Under the pieces are notes generated by a model that was given only the letters and a program-made list of their open reading frames with translations, had not been told where the DNA came from and ran no database searches. Both the position numbers and the translations under genes were made by a program. Source: Mesohalobacter salilacus (lineage in GTDB: Bacteria > Bacteroidota > Bacteroidia > Flavobacteriales > Flavobacteriaceae). Taken from it: a stretch of 37,437 nucleotides of DNA. Numbering within the stretch: position 1 is the first letter of the stretch; the number at the start of each line of letters is the position of its first letter. Shown here in pieces: positions 14,355-31,829 of this stretch. The DNA lies in the NCBI GenBank assembly GCA_003931895.1, contig RRZV01000096.1:1-37437 (forward strand). The letters run 5' to 3'.

Positions 14355-14441
14355 GCTGAAACCCGCTATTCGTTTCAATTCCTCAGCTGACCTTGCAGGT
14401 CAGCCTGCGGGATTTCCTCTTCTATCGGGGCTAAGGGTTTT
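14355..14441. repeat. Palindromic GC-richer intergenic element, copy 2
   Basis: Noncoding block between the convergent patatin and hisH genes. It contains a perfect stem GCTGACCT-TGC-AGGTCAGC (14386-14404) and the words CCCGCTATTCG and TATCGGGGCTAAGGG, which I recall from dispersed repeats in flavobacterial intergenic regions. It lies next to the inferred left breakpoint of the his-operon inversion and might also act as a bidirectional transcription end. Confidence 0.5.
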
Positions 14442-14483: not shown

Positions 14484-15077
14484 TTAGGTTGTCAACTTTA
14501 AAAAATTGTCCAGTATGTTTTCACCCCATTCACCGCTTTTCTCTGGATGAAATTGCACGCCGTAAAAGTTATTTTTTTGTAAAGCTGCACAAAAATTTAA
14601 ATCATAGTCACTGTCGGCAATACTATCTGGATTTGATGGCACGTAATACGAATGCACAAAATACATATAAGTCTCATGAGGTAAGTCTTGAAACAAATCA
14701 GTTTTTAGATTTTTGATTAAATTCCAACCCATATGTGGCACTTTAAGCTGGGTTTGAAAACGCTTGACTTCCACATCAAAAATACCTAAACCATCTGTTG
14801 GACCTTCTTCAGTCGATCGACACATGAGTTGCATACCAAGGCAAATACCTAAAACAGGTTGTTTTAATTCCTGTATGATGTGATGCAATTCGGTTTCTTT
14901 GAGTTTTTGCATAGCACTTTCGGCGTGACCAACGCCGGGAAAAATAACTTTATCTGCGGCTTTTATGGTTTTGGCATCGGCTGAAGTTTGGGCTGAGACG
15001 CCTAAACGGTTTAAGGCAAATTTTAAACTCTGAATATTGCCTGCGCCGTAATCAATTATGATGATGTTTTGACTCAT
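14484..15077 (-). CDS. hisH: Imidazole glycerol phosphate synthase glutaminase subunit HisH
   Basis: 197-residue class I glutamine amidotransferase that feeds ammonia to HisF for making imidazole glycerol phosphate and AICAR. The nucleophile is Cys79 (GICLGMQLM), and the catalytic pair is His177/Glu179 (GVQFHPEKSG). N-terminal IDYGAGN is characteristic. It is the last his gene on this strand and is cut off from hisB by a toxin-antitoxin pair and a palindromic element, about 870 bp in all. Its partner hisF lies more than 15 kb away on the other strand. Confidence 0.95.
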   Translation of the reverse strand: MSQNIIIIDYGAGNIQSLKFALNRLGVSAQTSADAKTIKAADKVIFPGVGHAESAMQKLKETELHHIIQELKQPVLGICLGMQLMCRSTEEGPTDGLGIFDVEVKRFQTQLKVPHMGWNLIKNLKTDLFQDLPHETYMYFVHSYYVPSNPDSIADSDYDLNFCAALQKNNFYGVQFHPEKSGEWGENILDNFLKLTT

Positions 15078-15111
15078 AGTTTGCTTAGTTCAATGGCTGT
15101 TGGGTTTAGTG

Positions 15112-15236
15112 GCTTAGGGATTCCCGACAAAATAAATTTAATAAAATGTTGTCGGGACAAGATTCGCGGCATCTCCTGCACGTGCGGGAATATAGCGGAT
15201 AGCTTGCCTGCCGATAGGCAAGCCTACTCGAAGCCC
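15112..15236. repeat. Palindromic GC-richer intergenic element, copy 3 (inverted relative to copy 1)
   Basis: Noncoding block between the second antitoxin gene and hisH. Its ends, GCTTAGGGATT (15112-15122) and CGAAGCCC (15229-15236), are the reverse complement of the end sequences of copy 1. Internal stems are CCCGACAA/TTGTCGGG (15123-15130 with 15149-15156) and GCTTGCCT/AGGCAAGC (15202-15223). It lies inside the his operon, where the hairpins could lower hisH expression or stabilise upstream mRNA. Confidence 0.55.
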
Positions 15237-15266
15237 ATAAGAAAACTCAAGTTACTTACAAATACG

Positions 15267-15431
15267 CTAAACACCGGACTTGACACTTGATTTATCGTGT
15301 TTTTTATCAAAGTATTTAACGATTTCTTCTGGACTTAAGTTCATAATATCTTTAGAAATACGATCTCTTTGTTCGCGCATATACTTCACGGCGTCAAAGG
15401 TGTTTTTCTTGTTGTTTTCTTTAATTTTCAT
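15267..15431 (-). CDS. Small antitoxin candidate paired with the PIN toxin
   Basis: 54-residue ORF. It begins with MKIKENNKKNTFDAVKYM, continues with charged helices (REQRDRISKDI, then LSPEEIVKYF) and ends with a short Lys/Ser tail. It overlaps the 3' end of the upstream PIN toxin gene by 11 nt and runs the same way, so the pair has toxin-first order. Size, charge, helical content and the overlap all suit an antitoxin. I place it in no named family with certainty; the FDAVKYMRE...LSPEEI pattern resembles small proteins that commonly accompany flavobacterial PIN genes. Confidence 0.75.
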   Translation of the reverse strand: MKIKENNKKNTFDAVKYMREQRDRISKDIMNLSPEEIVKYFDKKHDKSSVKSGV

Positions 15432-15885
15432 AATTTAATAATTCTCTTGGTGAACGAATGTCAATTGTTTTGTAGCCTTCAGATGTGTTGACTGAGTTGT
15501 AACCTACTATTCTAACAACATTCACAATATGTTTAAAGTTCCAGCTTACTAATATGTTTGCATTATGCTTGGTTGCTAATGCTATATGTAAACAATCAGC
15601 ATACGATGTTGCTCCAACAACTCCTGCTTTAATGTATTTTTTTGCCAAATTTACCGTTTCAATATCAGATTTCACAAACTCAGTTGAATTTTTTGGTAGT
15701 AATTCAGTTGTCTTTTTTATTTTATTAGGTGCGTTTTCTAATTCCTGTTCTGTAATGTTAGAATAAATTATTTCAAATTCTGAGTTTTTAATTCTTTCAA
15801 ATAAATGTTCTGTGAAATCTTTAAACTCTTCATCATATAATCCGCCAAAGATAGAAGTGTCCAAATAAACTCGTTGTTTTTTCAT
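15421..15885 (-). CDS. PIN-domain protein, probable toxin inside the his operon
   Basis: 154-residue PIN-domain protein. Asp9 in VYLDTSIFGG is the first catalytic acid, Glu46/Glu48 in ITEQELE the second, and Asp97 in YADCLHIA the third; the C-terminal position is Asn116 (SWNFKH). The family is metal-dependent RNases, usually type II toxins. It sits 59 bp after hisB in the same direction, and I see no TAnnTTTG promoter in that gap, so read-through from the his operon is likely. Two TTTACGA repeats (15894-15900 and 15904-15910) lie just upstream and could be an operator. It is unlike the 155-571 toxin in sequence and gene order. Confidence 0.82.
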   Translation of the reverse strand: MKKQRVYLDTSIFGGLYDEEFKDFTEHLFERIKNSEFEIIYSNITEQELENAPNKIKKTTELLPKNSTEFVKSDIETVNLAKKYIKAGVVGATSYADCLHIALATKHNANILVSWNFKHIVNVVRIVGYNSVNTSEGYKTIDIRSPRELLNYEN

Positions 15886-15944
15886 AATACTAATTTACGA
15901 ATTTTTACGAGAACTTTAATTTAAGAGGATTTTGTTGGTTTTTC

Positions 15945-17081
15945 TTATAGTTGACCTTTAGTTGAAGGTAAAACTACTTTCTCAGTATCTCTGCGAATCG
16001 CGGCTTTTATGGCTCGGGCAAAGGCTTTAAAAATACTTTCAATTTTGTGGTGTTCATTTTGACCTTCGGCTTTGATGTTGAGATTGGCTTTAGCAGCGTC
16101 AGTAAAAGATTTAAAAAAATGCATAAACATTTCGGTAGGCATATCGCCGATGTATTCCCTTTTGAAATCAGCCTTCCAAACCAACCAGGGTCGGCCACCA
16201 AAATCAATTGTCACGTGGGCTAAGGCATCATCCATTGGCAGATAAAAACCGTAGCGCTCCATGCCAAGTTTGTTGCCGATGGCTTGCTGAAAGGCTTCGC
16301 CAAGCGCGATGGCTGTGTCTTCTATGGTATGGTGCTCATCTACTTGTAAATCGCCTTGGACTTGCATATTAAGGTCAATTAGAGCGTGGCGGGCAATTTG
16401 CTCCAACATATGGTCAAAAAAGGCTAAACCTGTGGTGGCTTGAAATTGTCCGGTGCCGTCAAGGTTAATTTCTATATCAATTTGGGTTTCTTTGGTGTGT
16501 CGGCTATGTTTTACCGTTCGTGTGCCAAGACGTAAAATGTTGTAAATATCGCTCCAAGTCTGAGTTTCTAAGATGATATGCTGTTGAAGGTCATTTTTAG
16601 AATTGCTGAGTTCGTCATCTCCAAGTCCGCGATTGTTGTTAATGTAAATGCCTTTTCCGCCAATGTTTTTGGCGAGTTCAATATCGGTTAAGCGGTCTCC
16701 TATTACGATAGAATTTTTTAAATCGTAGTCGCCATTCATAAAGGGTTTTAAAAGCCCTGTTTTAGGTTTTCGGGTATCGGCATTTTGGTGAGGAAACGTT
16801 TTATCGATTAAAATATCTTTAAATACAATACCTTCATTTTCTAAAGTTTGGACAATAAAATTTTGAACTGGCCAAAAGGTGTTTTCGGGATAAGCTTTGG
16901 TGCCAAGACCATCTTGGTTGGTAATCATTATCAACTCGAACTCTTTGAGTTTGCCAATTTTTGATAAAAATGAAATAGCTTCTGGATAAAATTCCAATTT
17001 TTCAAAGCTGTCTATTTGTTCGTCTTCAGGTTCTTTGATAATGGTGCCATCGCGATCTATGAGTAGTAATTTTTTCATCAC
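15945..17081 (-). CDS. hisB: Bifunctional histidinol-phosphatase / imidazoleglycerol-phosphate dehydratase
   Basis: 378-residue fusion. The N-terminal HAD phosphatase (about 1-165) has the DxDGT nucleophile motif (Asp9, Asp11 in LLIDRDGT) and dephosphorylates histidinol phosphate. The C-terminal dehydratase (about 188-378) carries the two metal-binding signatures DEHHTIEDT and NEHHKIES. The HAD half has TFPHQNADTRKP where the E. coli enzyme has a zinc loop with three Cys, so the zinc site is missing. The start overlaps the hisC stop (ATGA). Confidence 0.94.
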   Translation of the reverse strand: MMKKLLLIDRDGTIIKEPEDEQIDSFEKLEFYPEAISFLSKIGKLKEFELIMITNQDGLGTKAYPENTFWPVQNFIVQTLENEGIVFKDILIDKTFPHQNADTRKPKTGLLKPFMNGDYDLKNSIVIGDRLTDIELAKNIGGKGIYINNNRGLGDDELSNSKNDLQQHIILETQTWSDIYNILRLGTRTVKHSRHTKETQIDIEINLDGTGQFQATTGLAFFDHMLEQIARHALIDLNMQVQGDLQVDEHHTIEDTAIALGEAFQQAIGNKLGMERYGFYLPMDDALAHVTIDFGGRPWLVWKADFKREYIGDMPTEMFMHFFKSFTDAAKANLNIKAEGQNEHHKIESIFKAFARAIKAAIRRDTEKVVLPSTKGQL

Positions 17082-18127
17082 TTAAATTGATTTAGAATTT
17101 TAATGAGGTAAGCGTTTTCTTTTGGTGTTCCAATAGTGATTCTGAGGCAATTTTTGCATCCAGGTTGGTTATGTCGGTTTCTGACCACAATGTTTTGGTC
17201 TATAAGCATTTGATAGCGTTCGTTGGCATTGTCAACTTTAACCAGCAAAAAATTGGCATCACTTGGGTAAACTTGCTCAACCCAATCCACGTTTTTTAAA
17301 GCATTTTTAAGCTTTAATTTTTCTTCTTGAAGAATATGGATTTGGTTTTGAACTTCTTCGGTATTTTTTAATTGTTTCAACGCGGCGTCTTGGGTCAGTT
17401 GATTAACATTATATGGTGGTTTGATGCGATTAAGATATTGAATAATTTCAGCATTGGCAAAACACATCCCTAATCTTGCTCCCGCTAAACCAAAAGCCTT
17501 TGAAAAGGTTTGCATCACGACAAGATTTTTAAAATCATTTAAGTTTTCCACCATCGATTTTTGAGTTGAAAAATCTTGATAGGCTTCATCTACTACAACT
17601 ATGCCTTTAAAATGCTTGAGCAATTGAATAATATCTTGTCGAATTATAGAATTTCCTGTAGGATTGTTGGGCGAGCAGATAAAAATCAATTTGGTTTGAT
17701 TTGTAATTTCGCTTAAAGCTTTTGCAACATCAATTTGAAAATCAGCATTCAAATTTACAGTTTTGATTTTTACCGCATTAAGTTCTGCTACAACTTGATA
17801 CATGCCATAAGTTGGTGGAAAAACAAGGATGTCATCTTGATACGGTTTGCAAAACAAACGCACCAGCAAGTCAATGATTTCATCACTGCCATTCCCGAGT
17901 AAAATTTCTTGTAGGCTCAGATTTTTGAGCTGAGCAATTTCAGTTTTGAGTTCAGTTTGATAGGGGTCCGGATAACGGTTTAAGTGGGTTTGAAATGGAT
18001 TCTCATTGGCGTCTAAAAAAGTCATAGCTTTAGACGAAGTGCTAAACTCATCCCTTGCCGAAGCATAAGGTTTTAGTTCAAGCAATTCAGGCCTTATGAG
18101 TTTTTTTATGTCAAAATTGTCTGTCAT
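17078..18127 (-). CDS. hisC: Histidinol-phosphate aminotransferase
   Basis: 349-residue fold-type I PLP enzyme that converts imidazole acetol phosphate and glutamate to histidinol phosphate. The Schiff-base lysine is Lys210 (MQTFSKAFGLAGARLG). Other motifs are LDANENPF near the N-terminus, CSPNNPTGN for cofactor and substrate binding, and VVDEAYQDF. Both ends overlap neighbours by 4 nt (hisD TGA with hisC ATG; hisC TGA with hisB ATG), showing tight translational coupling. Confidence 0.95.
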   Translation of the reverse strand: MTDNFDIKKLIRPELLELKPYASARDEFSTSSKAMTFLDANENPFQTHLNRYPDPYQTELKTEIAQLKNLSLQEILLGNGSDEIIDLLVRLFCKPYQDDILVFPPTYGMYQVVAELNAVKIKTVNLNADFQIDVAKALSEITNQTKLIFICSPNNPTGNSIIRQDIIQLLKHFKGIVVVDEAYQDFSTQKSMVENLNDFKNLVVMQTFSKAFGLAGARLGMCFANAEIIQYLNRIKPPYNVNQLTQDAALKQLKNTEEVQNQIHILQEEKLKLKNALKNVDWVEQVYPSDANFLLVKVDNANERYQMLIDQNIVVRNRHNQPGCKNCLRITIGTPKENAYLIKILNQFK

Positions 18128-19410
18128 TCTAAATCTTTTAAACGCAATGTTACCGCATTTTTATGCGCTTGAAGTTCTTCAGTTTCTGCCATAATTTCTA
18201 TGTGTGGCCCAAGATTTTTCAAGCCTTCTTTGGTGATTTTTTGATAGGTGATTTTTTTGTGAAACGCATCTAAGTTTACACCACTATATTGTTTGGCATA
18301 AGCATTGGTAGGTAAGGTATGATTAGTGCCAGAGGCATAATCACCTGCGCTTTCTGGAGTGAAATTACCTATAAAAACTGAACCTGCATTATGGATTTGC
18401 TCGACGACTTCATCTTCGTTAGTCACACAAATAATTAAGTGTTCAGGACTGTAAAAATTTGTCATTTCGATAGCTGTTTCTGTATCGGAAACCACAATGA
18501 ACTTTGAATGTTGAATGGCTTCTGTGGCGATGGCTTTTCGAGGGAGTTTATCCAGTTGAACTTGCAAAGCATTTTGTGTTGCTAAAGCAAATTCTTTAGA
18601 GGTCGTGACTAAAACCACTTGACTATCTGCACCGTGTTCCGCTTGACTTAATAAATCTGAGGCCACATATTCCGGATTAGCAGAATCATCTGCCAAAACC
18701 AGTAACTCAGATGGGCCAGCAGGCATATCGATTGAGACATCATAACTTGTGGCGACTTGTTTAGCCACGGTAACATATTGATTACCCGGGCCAAATATTT
18801 TATACACTTTTGGTATGCTTTCGGTGCCAAAAGTTAGTGCCGCAATGGCTTGAATTCCGCCAACTTGAAAAATTTTATGTATTCCACATTTATGAGCAGC
18901 ATACAACATTGCAGGATGGACTTGACCAGATTTTTGTGGTGGCGTGGTCATCACAACTTCATCGCAACCCGCGATTTGAGCAGGAATACCCAACATCAAA
19001 ATACTTGAAAACAAGGGTGCTGTGCCGCCTGGAATGTATAAACCAACTTTTTGAATGGGCTTACTCGCTTGCCAACAGGTGACGCCAGGTTGTGTTTCAA
19101 CTTTGATGGATGGTTGTTTTTGAGCTTTATGAAACTTATAAATATTGTCGTAAGCTATGTCAATAGCTTTTTTTAAGTCTGAAGAAATTGTTTTTTTAGA
19201 AGCCTTTATTATGGTTTCGTCAACCTTGGTTTGGTCAATTTTTAAACCATCAAAAAGTTCTGTATATTTTGAAACAGCGGTATCGCCGTGATTTTTAATA
19301 TCCTGAAAAATAGCTTTGACATCGTGTTCTAAAGCTGCATAATCTTGAGTTGGTCTTTTTAATAAGTCTTTCCAAGATTCTGGCTTTGGGTTTTCAATTA
19401 TTTCCATCAA
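18124..19410 (-). CDS. hisD: Histidinol dehydrogenase
   Basis: 428-residue zinc enzyme that oxidises L-histidinol to L-histidine in two NAD-dependent steps. Characteristic segments are VGLYIPGGTAPLFS, FGPGNQYVTVAK, PAGPSELLVLAD, SQAEHGADSQ (Gln and His zinc ligands) and FSPESAGDYASGTNH-like FTPESAGDYASGTNH near residue 355-370. Length matches the family. It starts 9 bp after hisG; an alternative Met lies one codon further in. It overlaps hisC by 4 nt. Confidence 0.95.
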   Translation of the reverse strand: MMEIIENPKPESWKDLLKRPTQDYAALEHDVKAIFQDIKNHGDTAVSKYTELFDGLKIDQTKVDETIIKASKKTISSDLKKAIDIAYDNIYKFHKAQKQPSIKVETQPGVTCWQASKPIQKVGLYIPGGTAPLFSSILMLGIPAQIAGCDEVVMTTPPQKSGQVHPAMLYAAHKCGIHKIFQVGGIQAIAALTFGTESIPKVYKIFGPGNQYVTVAKQVATSYDVSIDMPAGPSELLVLADDSANPEYVASDLLSQAEHGADSQVVLVTTSKEFALATQNALQVQLDKLPRKAIATEAIQHSKFIVVSDTETAIEMTNFYSPEHLIICVTNEDEVVEQIHNAGSVFIGNFTPESAGDYASGTNHTLPTNAYAKQYSGVNLDAFHKKITYQKITKEGLKNLGPHIEIMAETEELQAHKNAVTLRLKDLE

Positions 19411-19419
19411 ATTGTTTTT

Positions 19420-20277
19420 TTAAAGAATCATTTTTTCGATTGGTGCGACTAAAATCCCTTCTGCGCCGGCAGATTTGAGTTGGTCAATCACTTCCCAAAA
19501 ATCATTTTCATCTATGACTGTATGCACTGAAGACCAATCACTTTCAGCCAAAGGTAAAACCGTTGGACTTTTCATCCCTGGTAAAAGTTTAATGACGTGG
19601 TTTATTTTATCGTTTGGCACGTTCATTAAAATGTATTTCGAGGTTTTAGCTTTTAAAACCGCGTCGATCCTAAAGCTCAACTTGTCTAAAATATTCTGAG
19701 TTTCTTTATCAATAACAGGAGAAACTGCTAAAATCGCTTCACTATGTAGCACGACTTCTACTTCTTTTAAATTGTTTTTAAACAAGGTACTACCCGAAGA
19801 GACAATGTCGCAAATAGCATCGGCTAAGCCAATATTAGGGGCAATTTCTACCGAACCGTTAATGATATGAATATCTGCTGAAATTCCATTGTTGTTTAAA
19901 AACTGCTGAACCGTGTTAGGATAAGACGTTGCTATTTGTTGTCCATCAAAATCTTTTACACCATTATAAGTTTTAGATTTAGGAATAGCCATACTGACTT
20001 TACATTTTGAAAAGCCAAGCTTCATTTGAATTTTTAGGTCTTGGGCTTTTTCAATCAGTAAATTTTCACCGAGAATAGCGCAATCTATCACGCCATCTTT
20101 GAGGTATTGTGGAATATCACCATTTCTGAGGTAATAAATTTCTAATGGGAAATTGGACGCGGCAACTTTGAGTTGATCTTTTCCATTATCGATTGAAATA
20201 CCACATTTTTTAAGGATTTCTATTGATTTATCGTGGAGTCGTCCAGATTTTTGAATACCGATTTTTAAGTTTTTCAT
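19420..20277 (-). CDS. hisG: ATP phosphoribosyltransferase, long form
   Basis: 285-residue first and committed enzyme of histidine synthesis, joining ATP and PRPP. It is the long, self-regulating form: the catalytic periplasmic-binding-like domains (KIGIQKSGRLHDKSIEIL, then the PRPP loop near ICDIVSSGSTL) are followed by a C-terminal domain of about 75 residues (from about LLPGMKSPTVLPLAE) that binds histidine for feedback inhibition. No hisZ is therefore needed. The upstream leader holds an apparent histidine attenuator. Confidence 0.95.
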   Translation of the reverse strand: MKNLKIGIQKSGRLHDKSIEILKKCGISIDNGKDQLKVAASNFPLEIYYLRNGDIPQYLKDGVIDCAILGENLLIEKAQDLKIQMKLGFSKCKVSMAIPKSKTYNGVKDFDGQQIATSYPNTVQQFLNNNGISADIHIINGSVEIAPNIGLADAICDIVSSGSTLFKNNLKEVEVVLHSEAILAVSPVIDKETQNILDKLSFRIDAVLKAKTSKYILMNVPNDKINHVIKLLPGMKSPTVLPLAESDWSSVHTVIDENDFWEVIDQLKSAGAEGILVAPIEKMIL

Positions 20278-20289
20278 TTTCTATTTATT

Positions 20290-20325
20290 TAAATAAAAAA
20301 ACCCGCTTGATTATTCAAACGGGTT
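20290..20325 (-). terminator. Attenuator terminator in the hisG leader
   Basis: In minus-strand RNA, AACCCGUUUGA (20325-20315) pairs with UCAAGCGGGUU (20310-20300) around loop AUAA, 11 bp with one U-G wobble, followed by seven U in a row. The wobble is a mismatch in the opposite strand's RNA, which supports minus-strand use. It lies 13-22 nt before the hisG start codon, so it would end transcription before hisG unless the antiterminator forms. Confidence 0.85.
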
Positions 20326-20326
20326 G

Positions 20327-20345
20327 TATATTTTTAGGCATCACA
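20327..20345 (-). promoter_or_regulatory. Antiterminator pairing in the hisG leader
   Basis: Minus-strand RNA segment AAGCGG-UA-GUUGU (20357-20345) can pair with ACAACCCGUUU (20327-20317): five pairs, a 2-nt UA bulge, then six pairs including one G-U. This takes up the 5' arm of the terminator, so the two structures exclude each other. A rival hairpin CGCU-GUCA-AGCG (20364-20353) would free the terminator. The coordinates given mark the spacer between the two antiterminator arms. Confidence 0.7.
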
Positions 20346-20348
20346 CAA

Positions 20349-20402
20349 CTACCGCTTGACAGCGTTTAAGAAGTTATGAAAATGTAGCCATTGTTTTTTC
20401 AT
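20349..20402 (-). CDS. hisL: Putative his leader peptide, 17 residues
   Basis: Short ORF MKKQWLHFHNFLNAVKR followed by TAG. His codons are at positions 7 and 9 (CAT TTT CAT). It starts 4 nt after a TACATTTG promoter box and ends inside the antiterminator 5' arm, so a ribosome that reaches the stop codon would cover that arm and allow the terminator, while one stalled at His7-His9 would cover the pause-hairpin 5' arm (AACGCU) and allow the antiterminator. Only two His codons is few compared with the seven of enterobacterial HisL. Function is inferred from layout; the ORF is too short for compositional support. Confidence 0.72.
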   Translation of the reverse strand: MKKQWLHFHNFLNAVKR

Positions 20403-20406
20403 ATTG

Positions 20407-20414
20407 CAAATGTA
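20407..20414 (-). promoter_or_regulatory. his operon promoter -7 box
   Basis: Minus-strand TACATTTG matches TAnnTTTG exactly and ends 4 nt before the leader-peptide ATG, which predicts a leaderless or nearly leaderless his mRNA. No TTTG -33 element is clear upstream. Confidence 0.6.
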
Positions 20415-20497
20415 AATATATAATTTAATATGCCTTTATTGCTAACAGATATTTAATAAAAGTAAATTAAAATAATTTGGTTTTACAATAAAATCAT

Positions 20498-21313
20498 TTA
20501 ATTATTCCCTAAAATAATCGGCATACCACTATCACCAGAGCCGATAACAATCACTTTAGAATTATCAGATTTAGATAATTCAATAGTGGCTTGAATTCCT
20601 TTTTCTTGAAGAATTTTATCGGTTAGAGAGGCGCTTAAAATACGGTTGGCAGCTGCTTTACCTTCTGCTTCTATACGTTGTCTTTGTTTTTCTTTTTCAG
20701 CTTTTTCTAATCTAAATTCGTATTCTAAAGACTCTTGTTCTTGTTTTAATTTTCTTTCGATAGCGTCTTTAATGGTTTGGGGTAAAGACACATCTCTAAC
20801 CAGAATTTCGTTGACTTGAACATATTGATTTTCAAGTAAAGCTCTCGTTTCTTCAAGCATTTCATTCTGAATGGTTTCACGCTTTTGAGCATAAAGTTCT
20901 TCAGGCTTGTACCTACCAACTACTGATCTTGTGGCAGAACGCACAGCTGGTTTAATTAGTAGTTCAAGATAATTTTCACCTCTTTTTTGATGTAAAAGTC
21001 CTATTTCGTTGGGTTGCGGCTGAAACCAAATGGTAGCATCTAATTTAATATCCAATCCATTTGAAGATAAAACAGTCATTTTTTCATCTATAGATTGCTG
21101 TCTAACGTTGTAAACATAAACTGTATTCCAAGGCGCTATGATATGAAAACCTTCACTCAATGCCTGCTCATCAGTCACAACACCTCCTCCTAAAGGTTCA
21201 AATAAAACTCCAGCTTCACCTGAGCCGATAGTGACAACGGTATTAGCTAAAATGATAATGCCAACAATCACTACAATAATTATTGCAACAACTGATTTTG
21301 ATAATTTTTCCAT
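20498..21313 (-). CDS. Prohibitin-family SPFH membrane protein
   Basis: 271-residue protein with one N-terminal membrane anchor (about 7-25, VVAIIIVVIVGIIILAN) followed by an SPFH/prohibitin domain (about 27-215, opening GSGEAGVLFEPLGGGV) and a charged coiled-coil segment rich in Glu, Lys and Gln (about 190-225). Prohibitins form ring-like membrane scaffolds and often restrain FtsH-type proteases. The start is 13 bp after the stop of the VWA protein gene, so they share a transcript. The specific partner is unknown. Confidence 0.88.
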   Translation of the reverse strand: MEKLSKSVVAIIIVVIVGIIILANTVVTIGSGEAGVLFEPLGGGVVTDEQALSEGFHIIAPWNTVYVYNVRQQSIDEKMTVLSSNGLDIKLDATIWFQPQPNEIGLLHQKRGENYLELLIKPAVRSATRSVVGRYKPEELYAQKRETIQNEMLEETRALLENQYVQVNEILVRDVSLPQTIKDAIERKLKQEQESLEYEFRLEKAEKEKQRQRIEAEGKAAANRILSASLTDKILQEKGIQATIELSKSDNSKVIVIGSGDSGMPIILGNN

Positions 21314-29506: not shown

Positions 29507-30220
29507 ATGAGAATTATTCCCGCTATTGATATTATAGACGGTAAGTGTGTGCGCTTGACTAAAGGCGATTACAATACAAAAAAAATATATAATGAAAATC
29601 CGCTTGAAGTTGCTAAACAATTTGAAGACAGAGGAATTAAATATTTACACCTTGTCGATTTAGATGGTGCTAAATCTCAACAAATTGTCAATTATAAAAT
29701 TTTAGAACAAATCACTTCTAAGACCAGTTTAAAAGTTGACTTTGGCGGTGGTTTAAAATCAGATAAAGATTTAAAAATAGCTTTTGAAAGTGGTGCCCAT
29801 CAAATTACAGGTGGAAGCATTGCTGTTAAAACTCCTGATGTATTTGAACACTGGATTTCAAAATACGGTTCTGATAAAATCATCCTTGGTGCAGATTGTA
29901 AAAATGAAAAAATAGCCGTTAGTGGTTGGCAAGAAGAAAGTCAATTGGAGGTTTTCCCTTTTATTTCAGATTATGTTTCCAAAGGCATTCAATATGTTAT
30001 TTGTACTGATATTTCTAAGGACGGTATGCTCGAAGGCCCTTCATTTCAATTATACCAATCCATTTTAAAAGAAAATAAAACTCTAAAACTCATTGCCTCA
30101 GGCGGAATTTCAAGCCTAAATGATTTACATCAACTCAAAGCTATAGGATGCGAAGGCGCAATCGTTGGAAAAGCTATTTATGAAAACAAGATAAGTCTTA
30201 AAGAGGTTATGGGGTTATGA
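29507..30220 (+). CDS. hisA: ProFAR isomerase HisA
   Basis: 237-residue TIM-barrel isomerase converting ProFAR to PRFAR. The first catalytic Asp is Asp8 ([14 protein letters not shown]); the second lies in CTDISKDGM. Phosphate-binding GGG(L/I) and GGIS loops are visible ([18 protein letters not shown]). In the usual his order hisA follows hisH; here it opens a separate plus-strand unit, 92 bp after an M1 peptidase gene. No good promoter consensus or attenuator is seen in that gap. Confidence 0.95.
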
Positions 30221-30324
30221 GGTTGTGGAGTTCCCAAATTTTTAAAATTCAGTTGTAATCTGTGATCTGGGCTTATAAAATCTCATCTTTTTGTTAAACT
30301 AAACAACATTGTTTATTTCATAAA

Positions 30325-30332
30325 TATTTTTG
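30325..30332 (+). promoter_or_regulatory. Possible internal promoter before hisF
   Basis: TATTTTTG matches TAnnTTTG in the 257-bp gap between hisA and hisF. It lies 145 nt before the hisF ATG, which is far, and the -33 position is poor. Nothing else is recognised in the gap. Confidence 0.3.
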
Positions 30333-30477
30333 TTCTCTTATTTTGATTTCATGAAATAGGTTGACAAAAAAATTGTTAGTAAATTTCAGCAAAATTCAAT
30401 TTTATGAAACCAAAAAAAGTTTTAAAAAGCAAATGTTCACCTTTTAAACCTATAACCTTATAAACTAATAACCCTCA

Positions 30478-31233
30478 ATGTTAACAAAACGTATCATTCC
30501 TTGCTTAGATATCAAAAACGGTAGAACGGTTAAAGGCATCAATTTTGTCAACTTGAGAGATGCTGGTGACCCTGTAGAATTAGCCAAATTATACGCTGAA
30601 AATTCTGCAGATGAATTGGTGTTTCTTGACATTACAGCAACTGAAGAAAAACGTAAAACATTAATTGATTTGGTCAAACGTGTTGGCGAAGCGGTCAATA
30701 TTCCTTTTACCGTTGGTGGTGGCGTTTCGAGTATTGAAGACGTCAGTGCTATACTCAATGCTGGAGCTGATAAAGTCGCTATCAATTCTGCAGCGGTTAA
30801 GAACCCTGATTTAATCAATCAGCTCTCGGCTAAATTCGGCAATCAATGCATTGTTGTAGCTATTGACGCTAAAAAAATTAACGACCAATGGAAAGTCCAT
30901 CTCGTTGGTGGTAAAGTCCCTACCGAATTAGATCTATTTGAGTGGGCAAAGGAAGTTGAAATCCGTGGTGCTGGAGAAATTTTATTCACCTCAATGGATC
31001 ACGATGGCACCAAAAATGGATTTGCCAACGTAGCCTTAAAACAACTGAGTCAAATGCTAAATATACCTGTTATAGCATCTGGTGGTGCTGGAAAAATAAA
31101 GCATTTTACAGACACTTTTACTTTAGGCGAAGCTGATGCTGCATTGGCGGCCAGTGTATTTCATTTTGGCGAAATTCCCATTCCGGCTTTAAAACAAGAA
31201 CTCAGAAACAGTAACATTAAAGTAAGATTATGA
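30478..31233 (+). CDS. hisF: Imidazole glycerol phosphate synthase cyclase subunit HisF
   Basis: 251-residue TIM-barrel cyclase that uses ammonia from HisH. Catalytic acids: Asp11 ([13 protein letters not shown]) and Asp130 region (IVVAIDAKK). Glycine phosphate loops are VGGGVSS and ASGGAGK. The barrel is full length. The unusually long gap to hisA (257 bp) contrasts with the 4-nt overlap to hisIE downstream. Confidence 0.95.
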
Positions 31234-31829
31234 ACATAGATTTCAATAAAAATAAAGACGGTTTAGTCCCAGCTATTATTCAAGATGCCAAGACCAAAAA
31301 TGTATTAATGCTCGGTTATATGAATAATGAAGCTTTTGAAAAAACTAAAGCTACAAAACAAGTAACATTTTTTAGTCGAAGCAAACAACGCCTTTGGACC
31401 AAAGGTGAAGAAAGTGGTAACATTTTAAATTTAGTAGATTATAAAATAGATTGCGACAATGACACTTTACTCATTTTCGCCAATCCCGAAGGCCCAACTT
31501 GTCACAAAGGTACTGATACTTGCTGGGGCGAAGATAATCATTCTACTTATGGGTTTTTGTCAACTTTAGAACAAGTGATTGAAAAACGTCAAAATTCGGC
31601 GCAAAGCGATGACTCTTACGTAGCCTCTTTATTTGAGAAAGGCATCAATAAAATTGCTCAAAAAGTCGGTGAAGAAGCTGTTGAGGTTGTTATTGAAGCT
31701 AAAGACGATGATGATGATTTGTTTTTAAATGAAAGTGCAGATTTGCTATTTCATTATTTAATTTTATTGCGCGCAAAAGGTTTTCAACTAGATGACATTG
31801 TGAAAGTTCTGAACGAAAGACATCAATAA
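31230..31829 (+). CDS. hisIE: Bifunctional phosphoribosyl-AMP cyclohydrolase / phosphoribosyl-ATP pyrophosphatase
   Basis: 199-residue fusion for steps 2 and 3 of histidine synthesis. The HisI half (about 1-105) has [18 protein letters not shown] and the metal-binding cluster DCDNDT and CHKGTDTC. The HisE half (about 110-199) is a MazG-like helical domain with [13 protein letters not shown] and the acidic DDDDD stretch. It begins in the hisF stop codon (ATGA overlap). Confidence 0.95.

Follow-up and report, generated by a model that had tools for sequence, protein, structure and literature searches.

A predicted ribosome-mediated histidine attenuator upstream of hisG in Mesohalobacter salilacus and its relatives

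The region upstream of hisG in Mesohalobacter salilacus (minus strand, 20414–20295, about 20 nt before hisG) is very probably a ribosome-mediated transcription attenuator of the hisGDCBH operon, with an inferred response to histidine; we place the probability of this reading at about 0.92. The assignment draws on the anatomy of the leader, its conservation in relatives, covariation across species and the computed dependence of the RNA fold on the position of the ribosome. An attenuator of this type had been proposed in an earlier note on the window, that is, the whole 37,437-nt stretch analyzed here (contig RRZV01000096.1, assembly GCA_003931895.1), and it is still the best reading, the leader and its stems being conserved and stem 1:2 covarying.

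Under this reading, RNA polymerase would start at or beside the leader AUG. When histidyl-tRNA is plentiful, the ribosome would reach the UAG codon and cover arm 2, leaving arm 3 to pair with arm 4, and transcription would stop before hisG. With histidyl-tRNA in short supply, the ribosome would stall at His7–His9 on top of the 5' arm of stem 1:2, and pairing of arm 2 with arm 3 would keep the terminator from forming, so that the operon would be transcribed. Of this mechanism, we infer where transcription starts, that the leader is translated and how the operon responds to histidine.

Anatomy of the leader and its operon

The features of the locus, all on the minus strand, are as follows.

20407–20414 (−): TACATTTG, a sigma-A type −7 box (TAnnTTTG) of exact consensus, 4 nt (CAAT) 5' of the leader ATG
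20402 (−): predicted transcription start on the A of the leader ATG, give or take about 2 nt, from the box position in Flavobacterium psychrophilum
20349–20402 (−): leader ORF of 17 codons plus TAG, MKKQWLHFHNFLNAVKR; from the sequence, with a homologous His leader at 101 hisG loci (best 80 of 568 named plus 21 of the genus)
20376–20384 (−): control codons CAT TTT CAT (His7-Phe8-His9); from the sequence, both CAT codons being the same in the closest relative (L082)
20372–20378 (−): 5' arm of stem 1:2, CAUAACU, including His codon 9; from the minimum free energy (MFE) fold and the swap test (0/20000)
20344–20350 (−): 3' arm of stem 1:2, AGUUGUG, overlapping the stop codon; from the MFE fold and the swap test
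20353–20364 (−): CGCU-loop-AGCG apical hairpin of stem 1:2; from the fold
20345–20359 (−): antiterminator arm 2, UCAAGCGG-UA-GUUGU, containing the leader stop; from the sequence, with a homologous arm in relatives
20315–20327 (−): arm 3, ACAACCCGUUUGA, common to antiterminator and terminator; its core CCGUUUGA is nearly invariant in relatives
20300–20325 (−): intrinsic terminator stem-loop of 11 pairs with loop AUAA; equivalents in 80/80 (best 80 of 568 named) and 21/21 genus loci
20295–20301 (−): T run of the terminator, 7 T, two of them closing the stem; from the sequence
19420–20277 (−): hisG, first gene of the operon (PF01634 and PF08029)
14484–19410 (−): hisD, hisC, hisB, a PIN-domain gene and hisH, from ORFs, the PIN and glutamine amidotransferase (hisH) genes being recognized by Pfam

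Several properties of a ribosome-mediated his attenuator are thus present together. His7 and His9 lie in a short leader ORF, and the attenuator is flanked by a promoter-like box (20414–20407), which is a predicted promoter, and by the first his gene, which begins at 20277. Antiterminator and terminator are mutually exclusive since arm 3 is common to both. In the MFE fold, stem 1:2 consists of CAUAACU:AGUUGUG and GGC:GCC around the CGCU/AGCG hairpin; it competes with the antiterminator, would be masked by a ribosome positioned on the control codons and is 5.3 kcal/mol weaker than the 2:3 pairing in the window. A 110-nt stretch of the leader folds at −30.0 kcal/mol, compared with −17.1 ± 3.2 kcal/mol for its shuffles (z −4.07; 0/200).

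Most of this anatomy had been described in the earlier note, and the promoter box, the 17-codon ORF with His-Phe-His at codons 7–9, the UAG codon inside the 5' arm of the antiterminator (stop at 20351–20349) and the 11-bp terminator with its run of seven U were all recovered on the minus strand. Two elements had to be redrawn: the proposed CGCU/AGCG pause hairpin is present but forms only the tip of stem 1:2 in the predicted fold, with His codon 9 in the 5' arm, and the antiterminator, given as 11 pairs, exists but is two pairs longer by hand count (13 pairs with a 2-nt bulge).

Downstream of the attenuator, hisD, hisC and hisB are presumed identities, taken from recognizable translations and the conserved gene order rather than from a family search. 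The his operon breaks off after hisH, and hisA-F-IE lies on the other strand (window 29507–31829, +). In three relatives of the same clade (L171–L173), hisA-F-IE is likewise absent from the stretch after hisH, and two other loci of the genus (L174 and L175) have the intact order hisG-D-C-B-H-A-F-IE-truA. In a further genome (G013), hisG and hisA lie on different contigs. No terminator or His leader was seen by eye in the 160 nt before the split-off hisA at four loci of the window clade, so this part of the pathway may escape attenuation. The PIN-domain gene (PF01850; window 15421–15885, −) sits between hisB and hisH; it was not found in the five genus stretches searched, and no neighboring ORF of the window stood out as a partner gene. 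Just 3' of hisH, at window 14355–14436 (−), there is a Flavo-1 RNA (RF01705, 45.6 bits), for which the part consulted of a published F. psychrophilum study finds no clue to function (PMC9723704).

Conservation and covariation in relatives

Two sets of relatives were compared. The named loci, the 80 best of 568 hisG search matches, are close relatives by virtue of that choice; their titles mostly indicate Flavobacteriaceae or genera that we take to belong there. The genus set comes from 27 genomes, 21 of which have hisG (the M. salilacus window included). A His leader precedes hisG at 80/80 of the best 80 of 568 named loci and in 21/21 of the hisG-bearing genus genomes, and a terminator is present in 80/80 and 21/21 of the same loci, so that the arrangement is not a product of chance. 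The conservation check that the earlier note had called for therefore came out in its favor: the ORF, its His codons and the stems are kept in relatives (best 80 of 568 named plus 21 genus loci), with covariation in stem 1:2.

The typical leader among the best 80 of 568 reads M-x5-HHH(H) with a tail like QAR. It has 14–15 codons at four of these named loci (L019, L030, L045 and L054). In these four and in L089 the peptide tail is variable and stops early while the RNA arm is kept, which suggests that the constraint there is on the RNA rather than on the peptide. The number of His codons ranges from 3 to 6 in the best 80 of 568 named leaders and from 2 to 5 in the 21 of the genus, so the two of M. 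salilacus are at the low end of the family range; two-His leaders make up 6/21 of the genus (L001, L082–L086). The window belongs to a small clade with G006, G024 and G021, whose hisG identities to it are 91, 80 and 78%, compared with at most 73% for the rest of the genus. The leaders of these three relatives also have two His codons, preceded by a Trp codon.

The low number of His codons raises the question of decay, in which an attenuator with two non-adjacent His codons would have lost histidine sensing and left the operon basally expressed. The contrast with the 3–6 His codons of the best 80 of 568 named leaders is in keeping with this; six of the 21 genus leaders have two. A large share of control codons is said to be important for sensitivity in the portion of the literature consulted (PMC1183508). 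The ribosome-free fold in the window clade favors read-through, and the leader of the closest relative (L082) starts with GTG (1377–1379) where the window has its ATG, directly at the predicted +1. Against decay, the comparison of the window with that same relative reveals 0/56 changes at arm and His positions and 11/51 elsewhere (p 0.00015), with His-Phe-His and all arms kept in both. We therefore consider decay improbable.

Pairing was compared by direct inspection of the arms and by a swap test, because RNAalifold on a MAFFT alignment of 48 leaders recovered only the terminator; in that alignment, arm 2 of the window clade seems to be out of register. In the cross-species swap, the arms of 32 non-redundant leaders were exchanged in 20000 permutations, a design in which relatedness is reduced and not removed. 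Own arms of stem 1:2 pair at −12.0 kcal/mol and swapped arms at −9.0 (0/20000), and the own partner has a median rank of 5 of 31. For the 3:4 pairing, own arms reach −16.3 and swapped arms −15.6 kcal/mol (0/20000; median rank 17.5 of 31), and for 2:3 the slight difference between −10.3 and −9.9 kcal/mol was matched in 26/20000 permutations (median rank 12.5 of 31). As judged by these median ranks, the swap test supports only stem 1:2 broadly, and the 2:3 and 3:4 results come from a minority of species. From these pairing energies, the predicted stem 1:2 covaries across species.

Arm 3 hardly varies among the 32 leaders of the swap test. An upstream partner matching it at 8 of 8 positions is found in 68/101 leaders (best 80 of 568 named plus 21 genus), compared with 106/2020 shuffled regions, and 12 of the same 101 reach at most 6 of 8 gapless pairs. 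In one leader (L096), arms 2, 3 and 4 have changed together (CUUAAGCG, CGUUUAAG and UUUAAACG) with both alternative pairings kept; two others (L095 and L098) share its change in arms 3 and 4 with a poorer arm 2.

To follow the distribution across the phylum, we surveyed 148 genomes, 128 of them with hisG, and fetched the region 5' of hisG from 80 of the 126 other hisG-bearing genomes, picked by genus. A His-rich leader, defined as an ORF of 8–40 codons with an ATG or GTG start and at least 3 His in 7 codons, occurs in 31/31 regions of the same class, 23/49 of other classes and 14/800 shuffles. The same scan of the 31 same-class regions for other amino acids returned 5 for F, 7 for N, 6 for K, 3 for R, 2 for P, 1 for Y and none for W or Q. 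Many sampled families outside the class have no His-rich leader (e.g., 0/4 in family f15), and the terminator scan was positive in only part of the phylum-sample regions.

These counts bear on two other explanations. One holds that the hairpin merely terminates the upstream SPFH/Band-7 gene and that the small ORF is there by chance. An SPFH gene (PF01145) does lie upstream of the leader on the same strand (20498–21313), and a homologue is upstream at 77/101 loci (best 80 of 568 named plus 21 genus). Yet the 24 of these 101 loci without an SPFH homologue still keep leader and terminator; 23 of the 24 have an upstream ORF of at least 80 codons, the longest of which points the opposite way in 17/23. 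With His-rich leaders at every sampled same-class locus and in so few shuffles, termination of SPFH transcripts as the sole role is very unlikely. The other explanation, a riboswitch, T-box or protein-bound leader in place of ribosome sensing, found no support besides the structured RNA itself. Rfam holds a histidine leader family, and on this leader no Rfam family reaches its gathering score: the 11 weak matches score 14–22 bits against cut-offs of 41–99, Trp_leader among them with 17.9 bits against 41, and no histidine leader family appears among the matches up to E 10. Since in-frame His codons moreover recur across the class, we regard this explanation as scarcely credible.

Predicted start site and ribosome position

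Two features of the locus are less expected. One is the computed weakness of stem 1:2 relative to the antiterminator in the window clade, though not there alone; the other is the predicted start of the transcript at the leader AUG, a prediction from the spacing of the promoter box. In F. psychrophilum the TAnnTTTG box is at −12 to −5, according to the part of the study consulted (PMC9723704); combined with the 4-nt gap of M. salilacus, this puts the predicted +1 five nt after the G of the box, on the A of the leader ATG. The promoters of Bacteroides thetaiotaomicron are described, in the portion consulted, as centered at −7 (PMC7366714), so the predicted position may err by 1–2 nt. Leaderless mRNAs make up 5.5% in F. 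psychrophilum by the same partial source (PMC9723704). An exact box within 10 nt precedes 0/27 other ATG starts, hand-picked from the 41 ORFs of the window, and a box with a single mismatch precedes 7/27, so that one-mismatch boxes are weak evidence. ATCTGTTAGCA occurs at window 20440–20450 (−), roughly 25 nt 5' of the promoter box, and also in two clade relatives (L082 and L083), and may be an upstream promoter element.

A box with at least 5/6 matches precedes 100/101 his leaders (best 80 of 568 named plus 21 genus). When ties are settled towards a gap of 7, the gap to the start codon in these 100 is 4–8 nt in 73, 9–10 in 7 and 17–20 in 20. Without this choice, 66 of the 101 have a single best box and 35 are ambiguous, and the gaps of the 66 are 4–8 nt in 45, 9–10 in 7 and 17–20 in 14. 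In the genus, a WWW leader precedes trpE at 24/24 strong loci (L122–L145; six weak paralogue loci, L146–L151, and further weak matches were left out), with ties here settled towards a gap of 5: the gap is 4 nt in 14, 5 in 7, 7 in 2 and 16 in one, the genome of the window itself (L144). The gap of 4–5 nt at 21/24 of these leaders predicts leaderless trp attenuators, the leader with gap 16 being ambiguous. Phe/Tyr-rich leader ORFs precede prephenate dehydratase at 19/20 loci (L102–L121; window genome L108) in a scan run without a shuffle control, and these are probably phe attenuators. At the nine ilvD loci of the genus, a scan for Ile alone found no recurring leader.

The influence of the ribosome was computed in a model in which arm 3 has been made and arm 4 has not yet, with pairing of arm 3 to upstream RNA as the outcome. 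Across the 101 leaders (best 80 of 568 named plus 21 genus), the mean probability of the full-arm antiterminator is 0.67 with a ribosome on the His codons, 0.11 with one at the stop codon and 0.23 without a ribosome; it is higher at His than at stop in 100/101, by more than 0.3 in 91. With the 8-nt core arm and footprints of 9–17 nt, the difference exceeds 0.3 in 81–93 of the same 101, and the means at a 13-nt footprint are 0.87 (His), 0.27 (stop) and 0.50 (ribosome-free). The M. salilacus leader gives 0.97 at His, 0.03 at stop and 0.97 ribosome-free with the full arm. This ribosome-free preference for the antiterminator weighs against the attenuator reading, as do the GTG start in L082, the four named leaders of 14–15 codons, the 12 leaders with at most 6 of 8 pairs to arm 3, the recovery of the terminator alone by RNAalifold and the minority of species behind the 2:3 and 3:4 swap results.

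The ribosome-free values of the clade relatives L082, L083 and L084 are 0.97, 0.89 and 0.68, and 2:3 outweighs 1:2 in them by 5.4, 2.0 and 5.4 kcal/mol. In the 97 other leaders the advantage of 2:3 has a median of 0.0, is zero or less in 53 and reaches 5.4 kcal/mol at most, a maximum that puts the window clade at the edge of the distribution without making it unique; the ribosome-free average of 0.50 with the core arm also makes it less special. A leaderless and default-on attenuator in the window clade is accordingly a tentative idea, and on balance a doubtful one: the ribosome would have to load on a 5'-terminal AUG and reach the stop codon for termination to occur, and without translation arm 2 would escape the weak 1:2 stem and the operon would read through, contrary to the usual protected state. 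As the full-leader ribosome-free MFE fold contains the terminator, the choice between a default-on and a default-off state is a matter of kinetics and beyond the reach of folding. Were the idea true, his and trp attenuators in this group would as a rule have leaderless or near-leaderless (0–4 nt) leader peptides, a design that would solve translation without Shine-Dalgarno sequences.

Relation to known attenuators

Both the mechanism and the gene have been anticipated in print. In the part consulted, the 2021 F. psychrophilum study reports strong clues to leader-peptide attenuation upstream of amino-acid operons, and it names a structured 5' element ahead of hisG, conserved in other Flavobacteriaceae genera and with no Rfam match (PMC9723704). 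The novelty claimed in the earlier note was thus overstated, and that of the present account is modest. The F. psychrophilum element precedes the same gene as the M. salilacus leader, and section 19 of that paper describes no leader peptide, stems or covariation, which its supplement may hold; the present analysis adds the leader and its stems, the covariation, the distribution in relatives and a transcript predicted to begin on the AUG. A literature search for Bacteroidetes or flavobacterial attenuators returned nothing besides the papers cited in this text. Lists of Bacteroidetes attenuators reportedly may already exist in Vitreschak et al. 2004 and Lopatovskaya et al. 2010, and we do not claim a first description.

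The mRNAs of this group are described as having no Shine-Dalgarno sequences in the parts of two studies consulted (PMC7366714, PMC9723704). The present analysis gives, for such a group, a sequence-level account of a his attenuator that recurs across a class (31/31 sampled), where the section of the F. psychrophilum study mentioned above only flags an element. If the predicted starts are right, these leaders would be a natural system for studying the timing of leaderless initiation relative to transcription.

A precedent for a leaderless leader peptide is the Trp attenuator trpL of the alphaproteobacterium Sinorhizobium meliloti, in which the RNA begins with the leader ATG itself, by the part of the report consulted (PMC7298713); in M. 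salilacus such a start is only predicted. Some Firmicutes his leaders (Bacillus cereus group, Eubacteriales and Erysipelotrichales) are similar in having a His-codon leader, with 3–5 His in a row, and a terminator and antiterminator before the his operon; the main text of that work, as consulted, contains the word "Bacteroidetes" 0 times (PMC9413887). The his attenuator of Escherichia coli and Salmonella likewise combines a short His-codon leader, alternative hairpins and a terminator before the first his gene. Its 18-residue leader carries seven His in a row in the source as consulted (PMC3896937), compared with 17 residues and two His in M. salilacus, where the promoter is of a different type and the predicted 5' UTR is of near-zero length.
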